A stretch of 30,539 nucleotides of DNA from a virus. The translations under genes were made by a program, and so were the position numbers. Positions 6,202 through 22,222 of this stretch are shown piece by piece (the stretch's first letter is position 1; each line of letters starts with the position of its first letter). The stretch is taken from IMG/VR virus record IMGVR_UViG_3300009370_000119, positions 1 to 30,539 of that record. One strand, written 5' to 3'. A model generated the notes under the pieces. It was not told the DNA's origin, made no database searches, and saw nothing but the letters and a program-made list of their open reading frames with translations.

Positions 6202-6242
6202 AGTAACTAATTAATTACATTTTCTATAATTAATTAGTTACT
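6202..6242. promoter_or_regulatory. Perfect 16-bp inverted repeat between terL and the next gene
   Basis: AGTAACTAATTAATTA (6202-6217) and its exact reverse complement (6227-6242) are separated by a 9-nt loop. It lies 24 bp past the terL stop. The stem is very AT-rich and neither side continues into a clean run of T, so it is not a canonical intrinsic terminator. It could be a weak bidirectional terminator, an RNA processing hairpin or a protein-binding site. The rest of the 6102-6265 gap also holds a small GCCAC-ccaa-GTGGC hairpin near 6163-6177. Confidence 0.75.
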
Positions 6243-8687: not shown

Positions 8688-8960
8688 ATGTCAGAATCTG
8701 CCGAGGCTTATGAGGAGCCTGAAAGCGTATTGCTTTTATACTCAGGACTACAGGACGCTTTTATAGGGTCAGTAGAAACCTACGGCAAGCCACCAGTTGC
8801 CTGCTACTCCAAGAGGATGACGATTGATATCCTCCAGAAGGATTACGGGCTGAGTGAGGACGATGCTTATAGAAGATACGAATACGAATATCTTCAATCA
8901 GATTACGGAGAGGCAACCCCCGTTTTTTTGGATGACGAATCAATTACAAATGTTTCCTGA
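8688..8960 (+). CDS. Small acidic phage protein, paralogue of the 18686 gene
   Basis: A 90-residue acidic protein of unknown function. From residue about 22 it shares a pattern with the protein at 18686-18955: AF[IV]G, then PP-x-A, a helix with I-x-x-L, G-[LM]-S-x-DDA, aromatic residues and a final GE-x-TP-x-F. Only one gap is needed after the PP. No signal peptide or membrane segment is visible. It begins 6 nt after the HTH gene and overlaps the next gene, so it is part of the replication operon. No Shine-Dalgarno is present. Confidence 0.75.
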   Translation: MSESAEAYEEPESVLLLYSGLQDAFIGSVETYGKPPVACYSKRMTIDILQKDYGLSEDDAYRRYEYEYLQSDYGEATPVFLDDESITNVS

Positions 8961-11920: not shown

Positions 11921-12151
11921 ATGAAAGACACACCAGAAACAATACACCTCAGTGAGGAAATGGGGGAAAAGTTATTTAGTATAGCCGCCAGAAAGGTAAG
12001 GCTAACACATCCAGAAACTGGTGAGGAATTCATATTGGGGGATAATTGGAAAACATTCCGCGATCAACTTTCAGGCTATCCGAAACGGGTCTTTGACACA
12101 AAGGTTCTTCAAGTGATAATGGAATTGCTAACCGATGCCTCGCATGACTAA
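11921..12151 (+). CDS. Hypothetical protein, 76 residues
   Basis: A small protein with no recognised family. It is amphipathic, with a central segment rich in Thr/Glu/Gly (THPETGEEFILGDNW) and a helical C-terminus. The ATG sits 10 nt after the 11-bp stem of the upstream hairpin and lacks a Shine-Dalgarno. Its last 17 nt overlap the next gene, suggesting translational coupling. Confidence 0.6.
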   Translation: MKDTPETIHLSEEMGEKLFSIAARKVRLTHPETGEEFILGDNWKTFRDQLSGYPKRVFDTKVLQVIMELLTDASHD

Positions 12152-12605
12152 CGGCAAGGAAACGCAAGTATATCTTATGCTGGATACGACGAACAACTTC
12201 TATAAGATTGGATGTTCAAAGCAACCACGCTACAGAGAAAAGACCCTTCAATCAGAAAAACCCACCATTGAGCTACTCTTCTGTTTTGAGGGTTCCCGTA
12301 AGGATGAGAAATACCTTCACGAACATTTTAAGGAAAAAAGGATACGAGGAGAGTGGTTTCATTTAGATGATGACGGTGTGGCATATATTAAAGAATACGC
12401 TGACAAAATTGTTAAGCCTTGGGACGAGTGGCCTCCCGAAAATGACTTATACGATTTAACATATAACGAACAGGGTAAAATTGATTTTAAATGTAGCCCA
12501 GAAGAATGGGAGGAAGCCAGGAAGGGGTTCAAGTTTTACGAGTGGGGGTCTCCTGAATATAAGGCCGCAGAAAAAGAAAGAATTAAAAATGAACAACCAG
12601 AATAA
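12135..12605 (+). CDS. GIY-YIG-related T5orf172/Mug113-type protein
   Basis: A 156-residue protein whose first 80 residues fit the T5orf172 (Mug113) branch of the GIY-YIG nuclease superfamily. QVYLM (11-15) takes the place of the first GIY strand, YKIG (23-26) corresponds to the YIG strand, Arg residues follow at about 32-34, Glu58 and His62 lie on the next helix, and GEWFHL (72-77) closes the domain. The second half is acidic and aromatic, without a known domain. Members are common in phages, and most have no proven role; DNA cleavage is inferred from the family. An ATG at 12144 is an alternative start. The gene overlaps the nuclease gene after it by 17 nt. Confidence 0.75.
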   Translation: MPRMTNGKETQVYLMLDTTNNFYKIGCSKQPRYREKTLQSEKPTIELLFCFEGSRKDEKYLHEHFKEKRIRGEWFHLDDDGVAYIKEYADKIVKPWDEWPPENDLYDLTYNEQGKIDFKCSPEEWEEARKGFKFYEWGSPEYKAAEKERIKNEQPE

Positions 12606-14412: not shown

Positions 14413-14619
14413 ATGCCAAGCTCAGAAGAAGAGATTGAAGTAATCGAAGGTGAACAAGCCCTGGCTGAACAGCTTATTGGCGAGGTTACCGAGAAGATCG
14501 AGGAACTGGGGAAGCAGAGGGAGCGTTTGGTCGTTCTTTCCACCGTGTTCACTAGGTCTTTGAAAGACCTTCGGGAGAATCCGGTGCAGAGTGCGCTGGC
14601 TATTGAAAGCGACGAGTAG
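14413..14619 (+). CDS. Small acidic coiled-coil protein
   Basis: A 68-residue acidic protein with a clear heptad-like helix (EQLIGEVTEKIEELGKQRERL), probably oligomeric. It follows the previous gene by 5 nt. Function unknown; its place between a putative SSB and polA suggests an accessory replication role. An opposite-strand open frame covers the same DNA but has the wrong orientation for this operon. Confidence 0.6.
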   Translation: MPSSEEEIEVIEGEQALAEQLIGEVTEKIEELGKQRERLVVLSTVFTRSLKDLRENPVQSALAIESDE

Positions 14620-14630
14620 TCTAAATCCAC

Positions 14631-14684
14631 GGCGTAGCAGGGTTTTATCGTTTTGATCCTGAATCGCCTGCCGCTCCAGCGGCA
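14631..14684 (+). other. Structured leader upstream of polA, hairpins 1 and 2
   Basis: Hairpin 1 pairs GGCG (14631-14634) with CGCC (14665-14668) and CAGG (14638-14641) with CCTG (14658-14661) across a 3x3 internal loop. Hairpin 2 is TGCCGCT-CC-AGCGGCA (14669-14684), a perfect palindrome with a 2-nt centre. They are directly adjacent, and hairpin 2 shares four bases with the terminator-like stem that follows, so full forms of the two cannot coexist. The arrangement resembles an attenuator leader. Confidence 0.5.
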
Positions 14685-14728
14685 CTGAGGTCTTACGCTT
14701 TCTTCCTCAGTGTCGTTGGGGCTTTTTT
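14681..14728 (+). terminator. Terminator-like hairpin immediately before polA
   Basis: GGCACTGAGG (14681-14690) pairs with CCTCAGTGTC (14705-14714), with one G-U pair and a 14-nt loop. Eight bases later comes a run of six T (14723-14728), which directly abuts the first ATG of polA. The distance from stem to T-run is longer than in a classical intrinsic terminator, so termination may be partial. Alternatively it is an RNA-stability or processing hairpin. Confidence 0.5.
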
Positions 14729-16525
14729 ATGGGGATAACCATGTATAAGAAGCACCAGATAGATAGAAATACTTTTGCCGTAGACTTTGAGACCTACTAT
14801 GACAAGGGCTGTTCGATAAAGACTTTAGGGACGCTGGGCTATTTCTCTCATCCCGATTTTGATGCCTACATGGTGTCTGTTGTCGGGGACGATGGAACCA
14901 ACTTTGTAGGTGACCCTAGAGTGTTCGACTGGTCTTCCCTTAAAGGGCATACAGTTCTTTCGCATAACGCTTCATTTGACGAGACGCTTTACCTGTTTGG
15001 TGTCCGCAAAGGGTGGTGGGCTGGGGTGCAACCGGCTGAGTGGCATTGCACGGCAGACTTGGCTGCTTTCTGCGGTATACCGCGCTCATTAAAAGGGGCT
15101 ACGGGGGAACTGTTTGACCTAGAGGTCTCCAAGGAGACCCGCAACAACATGATGGGTAAACGATGGGGGGAAATGACCCCAGAGTTTAAAAAGGAAGTCA
15201 GTGATTACGCCCTAAAAGATTCGGAGTTATGCTTAAAGCTGTGGAAGGAGCTTAAAGAGAGGTGGCCTCAAAGGGAGCGGGATATTAGTAGGGTCAATCG
15301 GAAGAGCGTTCAACGGGGGATTCCCATTGACATAGCCCTCCTGAAGGAACAGCAGGAAAACGTATCGCAACGCCTCTTTGAGGCAGAAAACTGTATCCCG
15401 TGGATTGGTGAATCGCCGCCGCTTTCCCGCAAAGCGTTTAATGAAGAGTGCCGCAAGATAGGTATCGAGCCTCCCGCAAGCCTAGCCCTCTCAAGTGAAG
15501 AAGCAAACGAATGGATATGCCTTCATGGCAAGGACTACCCGTGGATTGAAGCTGTCCGCGACTACAGGCGTATCAATGCATTAAAACGTAAACTGGAGTC
15601 CTTCGATTACGCCACAATGTCAGACGAACGCTATTATGGCGGGTTAATGTATATGGGAGCGCATACTGGACGCTTCAGTGGCAGCGGGGGAAATTTAAAT
15701 TTGCAAAATTTGCCGAGGGGAGAAATGTTCGGTGCTAACCTCAGACATCTTGTTAGCCCAAAGAAAGGCAAGAAACTTATTGTAGCGGACTTATCCCAAA
15801 TTGAGGTTCGCACCTTGTGCTGGTTGGCAGAAGATCAGGGAACCCTGGAAGAGATCAAGAAGTCGGACGATATCTACGAGGCGTTTGCAGTTCGATTCGG
15901 GAAGTGGGACTATGCAAAGGGGTCATTAAAAGACAAAGACCCAAAGCTGCGCCACACGGTGAAGACGATGGTGCTTGGTTGCGGCTACGGGGCTTCTGCC
16001 AAGAAATTTGCAATGATATCAGGGATGTCACTGATGGACGCTCAATCAGCAGTGAGCCTGTATAGGCACAAACTCCAAAAGGTTGTGGCACTATGGAACA
16101 AGCTGCAACGTGATATGCACATAGCGTACGCCCAGAACAAAGACTTTAAACTGAAGCTGCCTTCCGGCAGAGTGTTAAATTACGGAAAAATCACTACCGC
16201 TCTGCAAGGGAACAGGCGTAACTACATAGCTATGCTAACCAAGGGGTCAAAGAAGATACCAATAAGACTTTGGGGTGGGCTGTTAGCGGAAAATATATCT
16301 CAGGCACTCGCCAGAGATATCTTCGCTGATATGCTCCTCCGCATTGACGCGAAAGGCATTAACGTCATCTTCCATGTGCATGACGAATTTGTGATCGAAG
16401 CAGAAGAATCAGAGGCAGATAACGTCCTGAAACAAGTAATAGAAAGCATGTCAAAAGCTCCTGGCTGGATACCGGATATCCCGCTGGCGGCAGAAGGCAA
16501 AATACTAGAGAGATACGAAAAATGA
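14729..16525 (+). CDS. polA: Family A DNA polymerase with 3'-5' exonuclease (Leu762 type)
   Basis: A 598-residue replicative polymerase, compact like other phage PolA proteins and lacking a 5' nuclease domain. The exonuclease domain shows DFETYYD (Asp19, Glu21), SHNASFDE (Asp84) and YALKDSELC (Tyr160, Asp164). The polymerase domain has motif A VADLSQIEVRT (Asp354), motif B RHTVKTMVLGCGYG and motif C HDE (551-553). In motif B the residue aligned with E. coli Phe762 is Leu416 (codon 15974-15976). ATG 14741 is an alternative start: it has GGGG about 7 nt upstream, whereas 14729 has only the T-run before it. The stop overlaps the next gene by 4 nt. Confidence 0.95.
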   Translation: MGITMYKKHQIDRNTFAVDFETYYDKGCSIKTLGTLGYFSHPDFDAYMVSVVGDDGTNFVGDPRVFDWSSLKGHTVLSHNASFDETLYLFGVRKGWWAGVQPAEWHCTADLAAFCGIPRSLKGATGELFDLEVSKETRNNMMGKRWGEMTPEFKKEVSDYALKDSELCLKLWKELKERWPQRERDISRVNRKSVQRGIPIDIALLKEQQENVSQRLFEAENCIPWIGESPPLSRKAFNEECRKIGIEPPASLALSSEEANEWICLHGKDYPWIEAVRDYRRINALKRKLESFDYATMSDERYYGGLMYMGAHTGRFSGSGGNLNLQNLPRGEMFGANLRHLVSPKKGKKLIVADLSQIEVRTLCWLAEDQGTLEEIKKSDDIYEAFAVRFGKWDYAKGSLKDKDPKLRHTVKTMVLGCGYGASAKKFAMISGMSLMDAQSAVSLYRHKLQKVVALWNKLQRDMHIAYAQNKDFKLKLPSGRVLNYGKITTALQGNRRNYIAMLTKGSKKIPIRLWGGLLAENISQALARDIFADMLLRIDAKGINVIFHVHDEFVIEAEESEADNVLKQVIESMSKAPGWIPDIPLAAEGKILERYEK

Positions 16526-18699
16526 GATACCGGTTCATTAAAAACCTTAAAGAAACAAAAACGAATAAAGCGGACTCCCTTTACTCCAAGAAAGTCAGTA
16601 AACCGAAGTTTGCCTCAAAAGCCAAGTATAGAGAATGGTGTGCGGAAACCACAACAGACCATATCTTCTATAGCCTGTGTGAGGGGGACAATCCGAATGT
16701 CCGTATCAGTAATGACAATCCAGTAAATGCCGTCAACGGATTTGCCGCTGACTATGACGCTAGGGTAGACTGGGATGTAGTAGATAAACTCATACAGACC
16801 CAATGTAAGGAATATCTGCCCACTTGGAGGACACGCACACAATCAGGATATATACGCTTGGTGTGGGTGTTTGAAGACCGCCTACCTATTACTCCTGATA
16901 TGTATGATGCCTTTGTTAAAAGGCTTTCTACGCAAATAGGGATTGAGCGTATATTTGCCGGATTCGATACTTCATCATACAAAGCGAGTCAGTATTTCGA
17001 GATAGGTGAAGACTGGGTGAAGACGGGCGACCTGTTACCTAAAGCCGTTTACCGCACGGCATTGATGAAAGCTGCTGGCGATAAACCGCCCCAATCATCG
17101 GATACCTCAATACCCATTGATATCGTTGAAAAGCAGGTTCACAAGAAGTTTGCTAACCGGTGGGAGGGCGAATTCACAATAGGGTCAAGGGGGCCGTTGT
17201 TTTGGATTGATGACGGCATCGAGCGGGAAGGGTGTCAGGTAGTTGACGAGGGTATGGTCTGTTATTCCGATAGGGCTGGAAAGGGGTTTGTATCCTGGAA
17301 AGAGATATTTGGGACGAAGTTTGTAGAGGACTACGAAACCCAAAAGATGGGGAGCCTGCTAGACCAATACTGGTTCAACGGAAAGATGCACTACAAGCTA
17401 TTGCACGGGTCGGCACAACAGATACCCAAAGATCAATTGTGCCTTGAGCTTCGCAAGGCTGGGTTCTCACCGCGCCCGAAAAGGGGGCAACCACTCTCAG
17501 AGATGGAGACTGCCCTGTTGGCTATCGCTAATGAGAACAGAATTGACGAGGTCGCTCCAGTGGTATTTAGCAACGATAGAGTCGTGGAGTATAACAGTCA
17601 CCGGATTCTTAATAACGCTAATATCAACCCCGTTGAGCCAGCGGAAGATGGTGACCCTTCCAAGTGGCCTTTTCTGCACAACTGGCTATCTCAATTATTT
17701 GCTGACGATAAAATACACACGGTTACTTATTTTTATGCGTGGATGAAGAGATTCTACGAGGCCGTTCTCAACAGGGAACCCGCCCAAGGACACGCACTCC
17801 TTTTAGTGGGGGCTACCAACAAAGGCAAAAGCCTGTTATCGAACAGAGTAATTAGTGCATTAGTCGGTGGGTTTGCTGACGCATCGGACTACCTTAGTGG
17901 GCAAACAAACTTCAACAAGGACTTGGCGAGAGTTGCTGCTTGGGTAATTGATGACACGACATCAGCAGCGTCCTTCCAAGACCAGAGGAGGGCAACGGAG
18001 TTAATCAAGAAATGCGTAGCCAACCCTAGAATAGAATACCACGCGAAGTATGTGGATGCCGTCACCATTCCCTGGACGGGGCGGGTTGTCCTGTCTCTTA
18101 ACATGGACGCGAACAGTTTATCAGTTATCCCCGCTCTCGACTCAAGTAATAAGGACAAGTTGATGGCTCTGCGAGTCTCAAAGAAGGCATCCAGTAAATT
18201 CCCTCCCAACGCCGTCCTTGAAGAGACTATACGGGAAGAACTCCCCCACTTTGCACGTTGGTTGCTTGATTGGGAAGTCCCTAAAGAAGTCAAGGGGGAT
18301 GCACGTTTTGGTATCGCTTCTTATATTGACCGTAAGATTGAGTCAGCAGCTTACGACAACTCAAGTCGCTCTACAGTAGCTGAACTGGTTGAGTTCTTTG
18401 TTAAACGCGCAAGAGACCACTATACAGAACCGGCATGGAGAGGAACCCTTACAGAATTTCAGGGGTGCATCCACCTGTTTAACAACGGCAGGAACATTGG
18501 CGTGTCCGGCAACATGGAGTTTGTACGGAGGGGTTTTTTGGTTTTGGAGGAGACAAGTAAGGGGAACAAAAAGTCACGGCCAATAAAATCAATAGGGTCG
18601 GGGCAGGGAAAAACATGGGAAATTGACCTCAATGAAAAATATGATATAGATAAAAGCAGTCCTATCCTAGAAAAGGAAACGGCTGATGCTCATGAGTAG
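16522..18699 (+). CDS. AEP primase - SF3 helicase fusion
   Basis: A 725-residue protein likely to prime and unwind DNA at the fork. The N-terminal region (about 40-190) resembles archaeo-eukaryotic primases of phage type: GFAADYDARV gives the D-x-D pair Asp77/Asp79, TQSGYIRLVWVFE is the motif II region and QYFEIG the motif III region. The motif II histidine is not evident (Arg112 stands there). The C-terminal helicase domain has Walker A GATNKGKS (430-437), Walker B WVIDDT (Asp477/Asp478) and SF3 motif C LSLNMD near 525, as in D5/VirE-type helicases. A Gly/Lys-rich tail follows. The ATG overlaps the polA stop (ATGA). Confidence 0.85.
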   Translation: MRYRFIKNLKETKTNKADSLYSKKVSKPKFASKAKYREWCAETTTDHIFYSLCEGDNPNVRISNDNPVNAVNGFAADYDARVDWDVVDKLIQTQCKEYLPTWRTRTQSGYIRLVWVFEDRLPITPDMYDAFVKRLSTQIGIERIFAGFDTSSYKASQYFEIGEDWVKTGDLLPKAVYRTALMKAAGDKPPQSSDTSIPIDIVEKQVHKKFANRWEGEFTIGSRGPLFWIDDGIEREGCQVVDEGMVCYSDRAGKGFVSWKEIFGTKFVEDYETQKMGSLLDQYWFNGKMHYKLLHGSAQQIPKDQLCLELRKAGFSPRPKRGQPLSEMETALLAIANENRIDEVAPVVFSNDRVVEYNSHRILNNANINPVEPAEDGDPSKWPFLHNWLSQLFADDKIHTVTYFYAWMKRFYEAVLNREPAQGHALLLVGATNKGKSLLSNRVISALVGGFADASDYLSGQTNFNKDLARVAAWVIDDTTSAASFQDQRRATELIKKCVANPRIEYHAKYVDAVTIPWTGRVVLSLNMDANSLSVIPALDSSNKDKLMALRVSKKASSKFPPNAVLEETIREELPHFARWLLDWEVPKEVKGDARFGIASYIDRKIESAAYDNSSRSTVAELVEFFVKRARDHYTEPAWRGTLTEFQGCIHLFNNGRNIGVSGNMEFVRRGFLVLEETSKGNKKSRPIKSIGSGQGKTWEIDLNEKYDIDKSSPILEKETADAHE

Positions 18700-18955
18700 A
18701 GAAGAAATCGAGGATTTCCTTGAAGAGGCTGTCGGCAGCGATGCGTCCGATATACTCCTGCCTGACGGTTTTGAACGGGCTTTTGTCGGTGCTGCTCTTG
18801 ACCCGCCCAGAGCTATATTCAGTATAGACCTCTGCATCAAAAAGCTAATTGAGCAGGGGATGAGCCAGGATGACGCAGAAGAGTATTTCTGGTTTAACGT
18901 GGCTGGTTCACATATGGGGGAGAACACCCCGCTCTTTATATACACCCTTACTTGA
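18686..18955 (+). CDS. Small acidic phage protein, paralogue of the 8688 gene
   Basis: An 89-residue acidic protein overlapping the primase-helicase by 14 nt; ATG 18692 is an alternative start. It shares AF[IV]G, PP-x-A, G-[LM]-S-x-DDA and GE-x-TP-x-F with the product of 8688-8960, so the two are diverged copies. Function unknown. It is the last gene of the rightward operon, and its stop overlaps the convergent nuclease gene. Confidence 0.75.
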   Translation: MLMSREEIEDFLEEAVGSDASDILLPDGFERAFVGAALDPPRAIFSIDLCIKKLIEQGMSQDDAEEYFWFNVAGSHMGENTPLFIYTLT

Positions 18956-21989: not shown

Positions 21990-22222
21990 TTCCCGCCCCC
22001 TATGATGACAGCCCGCCGGTAGCTATAATCCGAATGAAACTTCTGGCCCCGTCCCATCAGTGTTCCCTCAACGAAAGGATATTTAAATCCTTTGATGAGG
22101 GTCACTGTTGGGGGATCATACATCGCGCTCTCGTTCAACGCGCTGCGCGAGCCTTTCAAGCCGCAACTTTGCAGCAGGGCTGCCATCGGCAGCAAGGCGA
22201 TCAATTTCATCTTCCAGGTCAT
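21986..22222 (-). CDS. Small lipoprotein, o-spanin-like candidate
   Basis: A 78-residue protein with a lipoprotein signal: MTWKMKLIALLPMAALLQSC, with the lipidated Cys at residue 20. ATG 22210 is an alternative start, giving a shorter basic head. The mature part is about 59 residues, basic and with Gly/Pro, near the size of Rz1-type outer-membrane spanins. The first 107 nt overlap the preceding coiled-coil gene in another frame, as in classical Rz/Rz1 pairs. It lacks the very Pro-rich body of Rz1, so the spanin call is tentative. A host-surface lipoprotein is an alternative. Confidence 0.55.
   Translation of the reverse strand: MTWKMKLIALLPMAALLQSCGLKGSRSALNESAMYDPPTVTLIKGFKYPFVEGTLMGRGQKFHSDYSYRRAVIIGGGK

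Follow-up and report, generated by a model that had tools for sequence, protein, structure and literature searches.

A conserved RNA hairpin in the polA leader of a broad group of uncultured phages, with a probable regulatory role

The polA locus and its leader

The window analyzed here, a 30,539-nucleotide stretch of DNA, is a fragment of a virus record (IMG/VR IMGVR_UViG_3300009370_000119). The element of interest sits within a run of same-strand replication genes, in the leader of polA, which encodes a family A DNA polymerase (14741-16525, plus strand; PF00476, E = 1.1e-31; PHROG 17, E = 1.2e-81). The end of polA is overlapped by a primase-like gene with a DUF5906 domain (16522-18699, plus strand) that would share the polA transcript. 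Directly upstream of the leader, the ORF list places a small plus-strand gene (14413-14619) for a protein of 68 aa, probably a coiled coil, for which no PHROG and no confident Pfam family were found. A megablast search of 12-18 kb against phage isolates returned no match, and the best polA relatives from isolates were ~28% identical among the matches listed.

An initial annotation of this DNA had described three successive hairpins and a T6 tract ahead of polA. All were found in place, but the terminator-like stem had been drawn too small. Hairpin 1 (14631-14668, plus strand) folds at -14.6 kcal/mol, with an outer stem at 14631-14634/14665-14668 and an inner stem at 14638-14644/14655-14661 that encloses a TTTATCGTTT-like loop; its stem and T-rich loop are recognizable in near relatives only. 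Hairpin 2 (14669-14684, plus strand) is a 16-nt palindrome, TGCCGCT-CC-AGCGGCA, with 6 pairs. The main hairpin (14673-14722, plus strand) has arms at 14673-14690 and 14705-14722, which form 18 bp including three G.U pairs around a loop (14691-14704) that contains a conserved CTTTC. Its inner ten pairs, GGCACTGAGG/CCTCAGTGTC, are real and lie where the initial annotation had put them, but the full stem measures 18 bp rather than 10 bp. The T6 tract (14723-14728, plus strand) follows directly 3' of the main stem in the position of an intrinsic-terminator tail, and is kept in near relatives.

RNA folding, proposed earlier as a check, gave -52.4 kcal/mol for the leader (14620-14740), compared with -31.8 ± 3.4 kcal/mol for shuffled sequences (z = -6.0; 0/200). 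Most of this energy is carried by the main stem, which alone contributes -32.9 kcal/mol, and the main hairpin is the most stable 70-nt local fold on the plus strand of the window. An Rfam scan of the window yielded nothing at the gathering score, the permissive matches being chance-level hairpin models, and no covariance-model match above the gathering score was obtained for 22 related or R1-bearing loci (R1, a second RNA, is described below).

The T6 tract had been placed exactly before the first polA ATG. The tract is there, but the in-frame ATG that abuts it (14729-14731, plus strand) is probably unused as a start: ATA takes its place in L001 and L028, both close relatives, and the sole in-frame ATG of most relatives lies two codons 5' of the conserved T in (N)T-[FY]-A-x-DFE. 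The polA start is therefore most likely ATG 14741, judged from these alignments, which would place T6 inside the leader. A Shine-Dalgarno-like sequence precedes polA in just 4 of 121 leaders. By eye, such sequences are also rare at gene starts on both strands of the window, hinting at a host with SD-independent initiation. Related contigs carry conflicting MAG labels (Altibacter, Blastopirellula, Verrucomicrobiales and Opitutae).

Conservation and covariation of the main hairpin

About 250 polA loci were collected in four scans of a viral contig collection and one of genome contigs, and 141 non-redundant leaders were each scored for their best hairpin no more than 95 nt from the start. The mean energy of these hairpins was -27.5 kcal/mol, compared with -15.2 kcal/mol in same-size windows elsewhere in the same loci. 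Hairpins of -20 kcal/mol or better occurred in 123/128 leaders whose polA was at least 50% identical to that of the window, and in 2/13 below that identity. Stem conservation, whose absence the initial annotation had named among the observations that would count against its reading, thus holds for the main stem, and the comparison with relatives added covariation. Among 17 distinct stems from the window's own branch, 95.4% of cells were paired, and two-sided changes were seen in 13/17 pairs, amounting to 68 cells as against 23.7 ± 4.7 in a shuffle test, which is inflated by relatedness, and 8-16 in a slid control, which preserves it. The CTTTC loop motif is kept in this branch; the loop sequence is not kept outside it.

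The small upstream gene and the hairpin were both present in 121 leaders, both absent in 13 and mixed in 7. The mixed cases include L152 and L175, which are contigs with little upstream sequence, and L192 and L237, in which R1 stands in place of the hairpin. Largely a product of one common descent, this association does not count as independent evidence for function. Changing gene neighbors as a way to tie the hairpin to polA was set aside; because the small gene is kept almost everywhere, distance statistics were used instead. The main stem ends a median of 16 nt before the start codon (SD 6.5), with a minimum of 9 nt. Its spacing from the stop codon upstream varies widely (SD 75). These distances are rough, since the upstream stop was picked automatically. 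The hairpin keeps its position relative to the polA start.

Five related long records hold few strong intergenic hairpins, and many of those other than the polA hairpin are symmetrical palindromes, in some cases with T-runs. A small number of strong intergenic hairpins in L382, L383, L388 and L389, whether or not they carry a T-run, also stand 12-27 nt before an ATG, so the geometry is not strictly private to polA; one such hairpin in the long relatives follows an apparent structural gene.

The leader element is real, larger than first drawn and deeply conserved, and it probably has a regulatory role. It represents an RNA structure that a broad group of uncultured phages retains at a constant position, where the replicative polymerase gene begins. 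The part of the literature covered gave no account of a conserved hairpin ahead of polA, nor of R1.

The terminator tail varies among relatives

T makes up 49-71% and G no more than 3% at the seven positions 3' of the stem in the 121 hairpin leaders; at position 8, T drops sharply and G rises. Such a T-rich, G-poor seven-base tail indicates that part of the family has a U-tract. Simple counting classed the U-tract as strong in 51 leaders, intermediate in 25 and absent in 45. Within the 43-row polA clade of the window it was absent in 30, intermediate in 9 and strong in 4, the window being among the 4. The strong/none state changed at least ten times on a FastTree polA tree. Because the T-tract is not conserved while the hairpin stays, the family as a whole cannot be conserving termination. 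By this comparison, selection maintains the stem and its spacing from the start codon, but not the terminator tail.

Possible modes of action

The window itself has the anatomy of an intrinsic terminator, with a stable GC-rich stem and a U-tract directly after it. The earlier claim of a terminator-like hairpin directly 5' of polA was borne out, the 18-bp stem and T6 lying inside the same-strand replication genes, and a leader directly before polA is well placed to set its expression apart from that of the upstream replication genes, as had also been suggested. If it is a terminator, it is probably leaky. Our leading interpretation, held tentatively, is that in the window's lineage the hairpin and T6 form a leaky intrinsic terminator before polA. 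The element would be a polA leader acting in cis as RNA: transcripts of the replication operon would pass through it into polA, as the 18 nt from stem to start codon are too short for a promoter. Some RNA polymerases would stop just past the 18-bp hairpin with its T6, and the remainder would read through to give the polA-primase mRNA, so that polA would be expressed at a lower dose than the upstream genes; a ligand-driven switch would not be required. We infer that termination occurs, is partial and lowers polA. As a trait of the family, leaky termination is contradicted by the 45 leaders that lack a U-tract, the 25 with a partial one and the strong tract in only 4/43 of the window's own clade. 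In relatives without a U-tract the hairpin would have to act otherwise, most simply through the 5' end of the polA message, its stability or its initiation. The window and the 51/121 leaders with a strong tract resemble operon-internal intrinsic (Rho-independent) terminators in their GC-rich stem followed by T-rich sequence, T6 in the window. They differ from them in that much of the family keeps the stem without a U-tract, and in the 18 nt that separate it from the start codon.

Of the readings considered, leaky termination is the most likely action in the window, and a purely post-transcriptional role of the leader follows close behind as a plausible possibility in its own right. In the latter case the stem would shield or generate the 5' end of the polA mRNA, possibly as a site of double-strand processing, or serve as a protein operator, for instance for the polymerase itself, and T6 would be incidental. 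This would account for hairpins kept where the U-tract is missing, and agrees with a position tied to the start codon yet at least 9 nt away, just beyond the ground of an initiating ribosome. The CTTTC motif kept in the window's branch and the two leaders with R1 next to the start in place of the hairpin point the same way. Against it, the T-rich, G-poor seven-base tail recurs across the family as a terminator mark, and the loop sequence is not kept beyond the window's branch. In T7-like phages, RNase III processing hairpins are long stems between operon genes, near a start codon. The element described here shares that placement between genes of one operon, but does not recur as a series along it, and in the window its stem ends in T6. 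A precedent for an operator exists in T4, where the gp43 polymerase acts through an upstream hairpin to repress its own mRNA (PMC3014915). The T4/RB69 gene 43 translational operator likewise has a hairpin in the leader of a phage gene for a replicative DNA polymerase, but it belongs to a family B polymerase and overlaps the ribosome binding site, with a short hairpin (16-18 bases) ~40 bases upstream (PMC3014915), whereas here an 18-bp stem precedes a family A polymerase.

The initial annotation had further proposed that hairpin 2 and the terminator-like stem share bases 14681-14684 and partly exclude each other, as in attenuators. The overlap exists, although it covers 12 nt of the 5' arm of the main stem rather than 4. 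Attenuators and terminator riboswitches do share the order of structured leader, terminator-like hairpin and start codon, and in the R1 clade a conserved pseudoknotted domain lies upstream of the hairpin; in contrast, the window has no stable mutually exclusive structure and no known aptamer. Hairpin 2 forms first, with a probability of 0.99 before the 3' arm is transcribed, but is lost between 3' ends 14711 and 14717, giving way when some ten to thirteen bases of that arm have been made. Its equilibrium pairing probability is near 0, and forcing it into the structure gives -40.4 compared with -52.4 kcal/mol, a cost of ~12 kcal/mol, so no alternative of comparable stability is available. Read from alignments rather than counted statistically, its palindrome is weak or gone in relatives and partly kept only in the nearest, and the alternative pairing is not kept in the others. 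On stability and conservation, hairpin 2 was rejected as an antiterminator, being displaced by the 18-bp stem rather than competing with it at equilibrium. A strict attenuator also conflicts with the partial or missing U-tract in 70/121 leaders, and in 39/43 of the window's clade, where the hairpin stays. With no ligand domain recognized in the Rfam scans of the window, a switching attenuator in which a signal selects between hairpin 2 and the terminator is quite improbable.

Slightly less probable again is a reading in which the upstream transcription unit ends in an ordinary full terminator and polA is transcribed from its own promoter. The stem and T6 are of full-terminator quality, but the 18 nt that separate stem and start codon cannot accommodate a promoter, so that full termination would silence polA, and a promoter 5' of the hairpin would itself face the terminator. 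Moreover, no sigma-70-like site is listed in the leader.

Pairing in the stems bears on whether RNA or DNA is the functional form. Across 66 distinct stems, 73 G.T and 14 A.C oppositions were counted, with 42 stems richer in G.T and 3 in A.C; the scoring treats both alike, and the stems are not independent although the direction is uniform. Because G.U far outnumbers A.C, the pattern indicates that the selected form is the sense-strand RNA. A DNA-level element at polA (a cruciform, a single-strand initiation site or a replication origin), to which a long inverted repeat within a replication module might point, is the least credible reading, since neither a DNA nor a minus-strand function explains a fivefold coding-strand excess of G.T.

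Polymerase dose control in these viruses becomes testable with a simple reporter once the conserved stem is told apart from the variable tail.

R1, a pseudoknotted RNA in a sister clade

The comparison of leaders brought a second RNA to light, R1, which is viral, covaries strongly and matched no family in Rfam 15. R1 is a pseudoknotted motif of ~80 nt upstream of the polA hairpin in one leader clade, corresponding to a single change on the tree, with the consensus RGGNAWTGYGGCGG..CTGGTTA..CRCC..GTAAYCRCATAAAAGC. Its stems are P1 (RGGY/RCCY), P2 (CGG/CTG plus a variable stem) and P3, which carries the loop TAAYCRCATAAAAG; the pseudoknot pairs TGYGG with CCRCA. In 67 copies, 97.3% of cells pair, with 220 two-sided changes compared with 62 shuffled and 4-61 slid. 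The three stems, but not the pseudoknot, guided the fitting of the alignment; the central pseudoknot pair is C-G in 46 copies, U-A in 18 and A-U in 1. Examples (A4/A5) lie at L157:2352-2430, L107:2340-2441, L310:217-299 (minus strand) and L302:6734-6812 (minus strand).

A pattern scan of viral contigs added 79 loci, 71 of them with a convincing R1. The downstream gene was polA by protein comparison in 21; the rest were not recognized as polA or were cut off. R1 also precedes unrelated viral genes, often 10-15 nt ahead of the ATG. It is rare in the sampled bacterial genomes (1/388 and 3/395), occurs once in each of five long polA-clade records that carry it, and was not matched in the window. 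A blastn search of one copy against phage isolates gave only a 22-nt match at chance level. R1 bears a loose resemblance to twister core sequences, but it is not put forward as a known ribozyme of this kind, a permissive Rfam scan of one copy giving no twister match.

In the widest reading, the polA leader would be an RNA module that sets polymerase dosage in a large uncultured phage group and is inherited with the small coiled-coil gene, R1 would be the sensor in one sister clade, and the window would carry the same output hairpin under another sensor. Taken as a whole, this scheme is unlikely, though less so than a switching attenuator.

Other features of the window

An AT-rich perfect 16-bp palindrome (AGTAACTAATTAATTA..TAATTAATTAGTTACT) at 6202-6242 lies upstream of minus-strand genes beside terminase, and is kept in a 58-kb relative of L008. 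Two small proteins, encoded at 8688-8960 and 18686-18955, both match PHROG 13182 and flank the replication module on either side. Among the replication genes, 12135-12605 encodes a GIY-YIG-like protein (MUG113 / T5orf172 domains). The second most striking long hairpin-forming stretch of the window, foldable on both strands, is located at 22046-22115 near a region of small ORFs.
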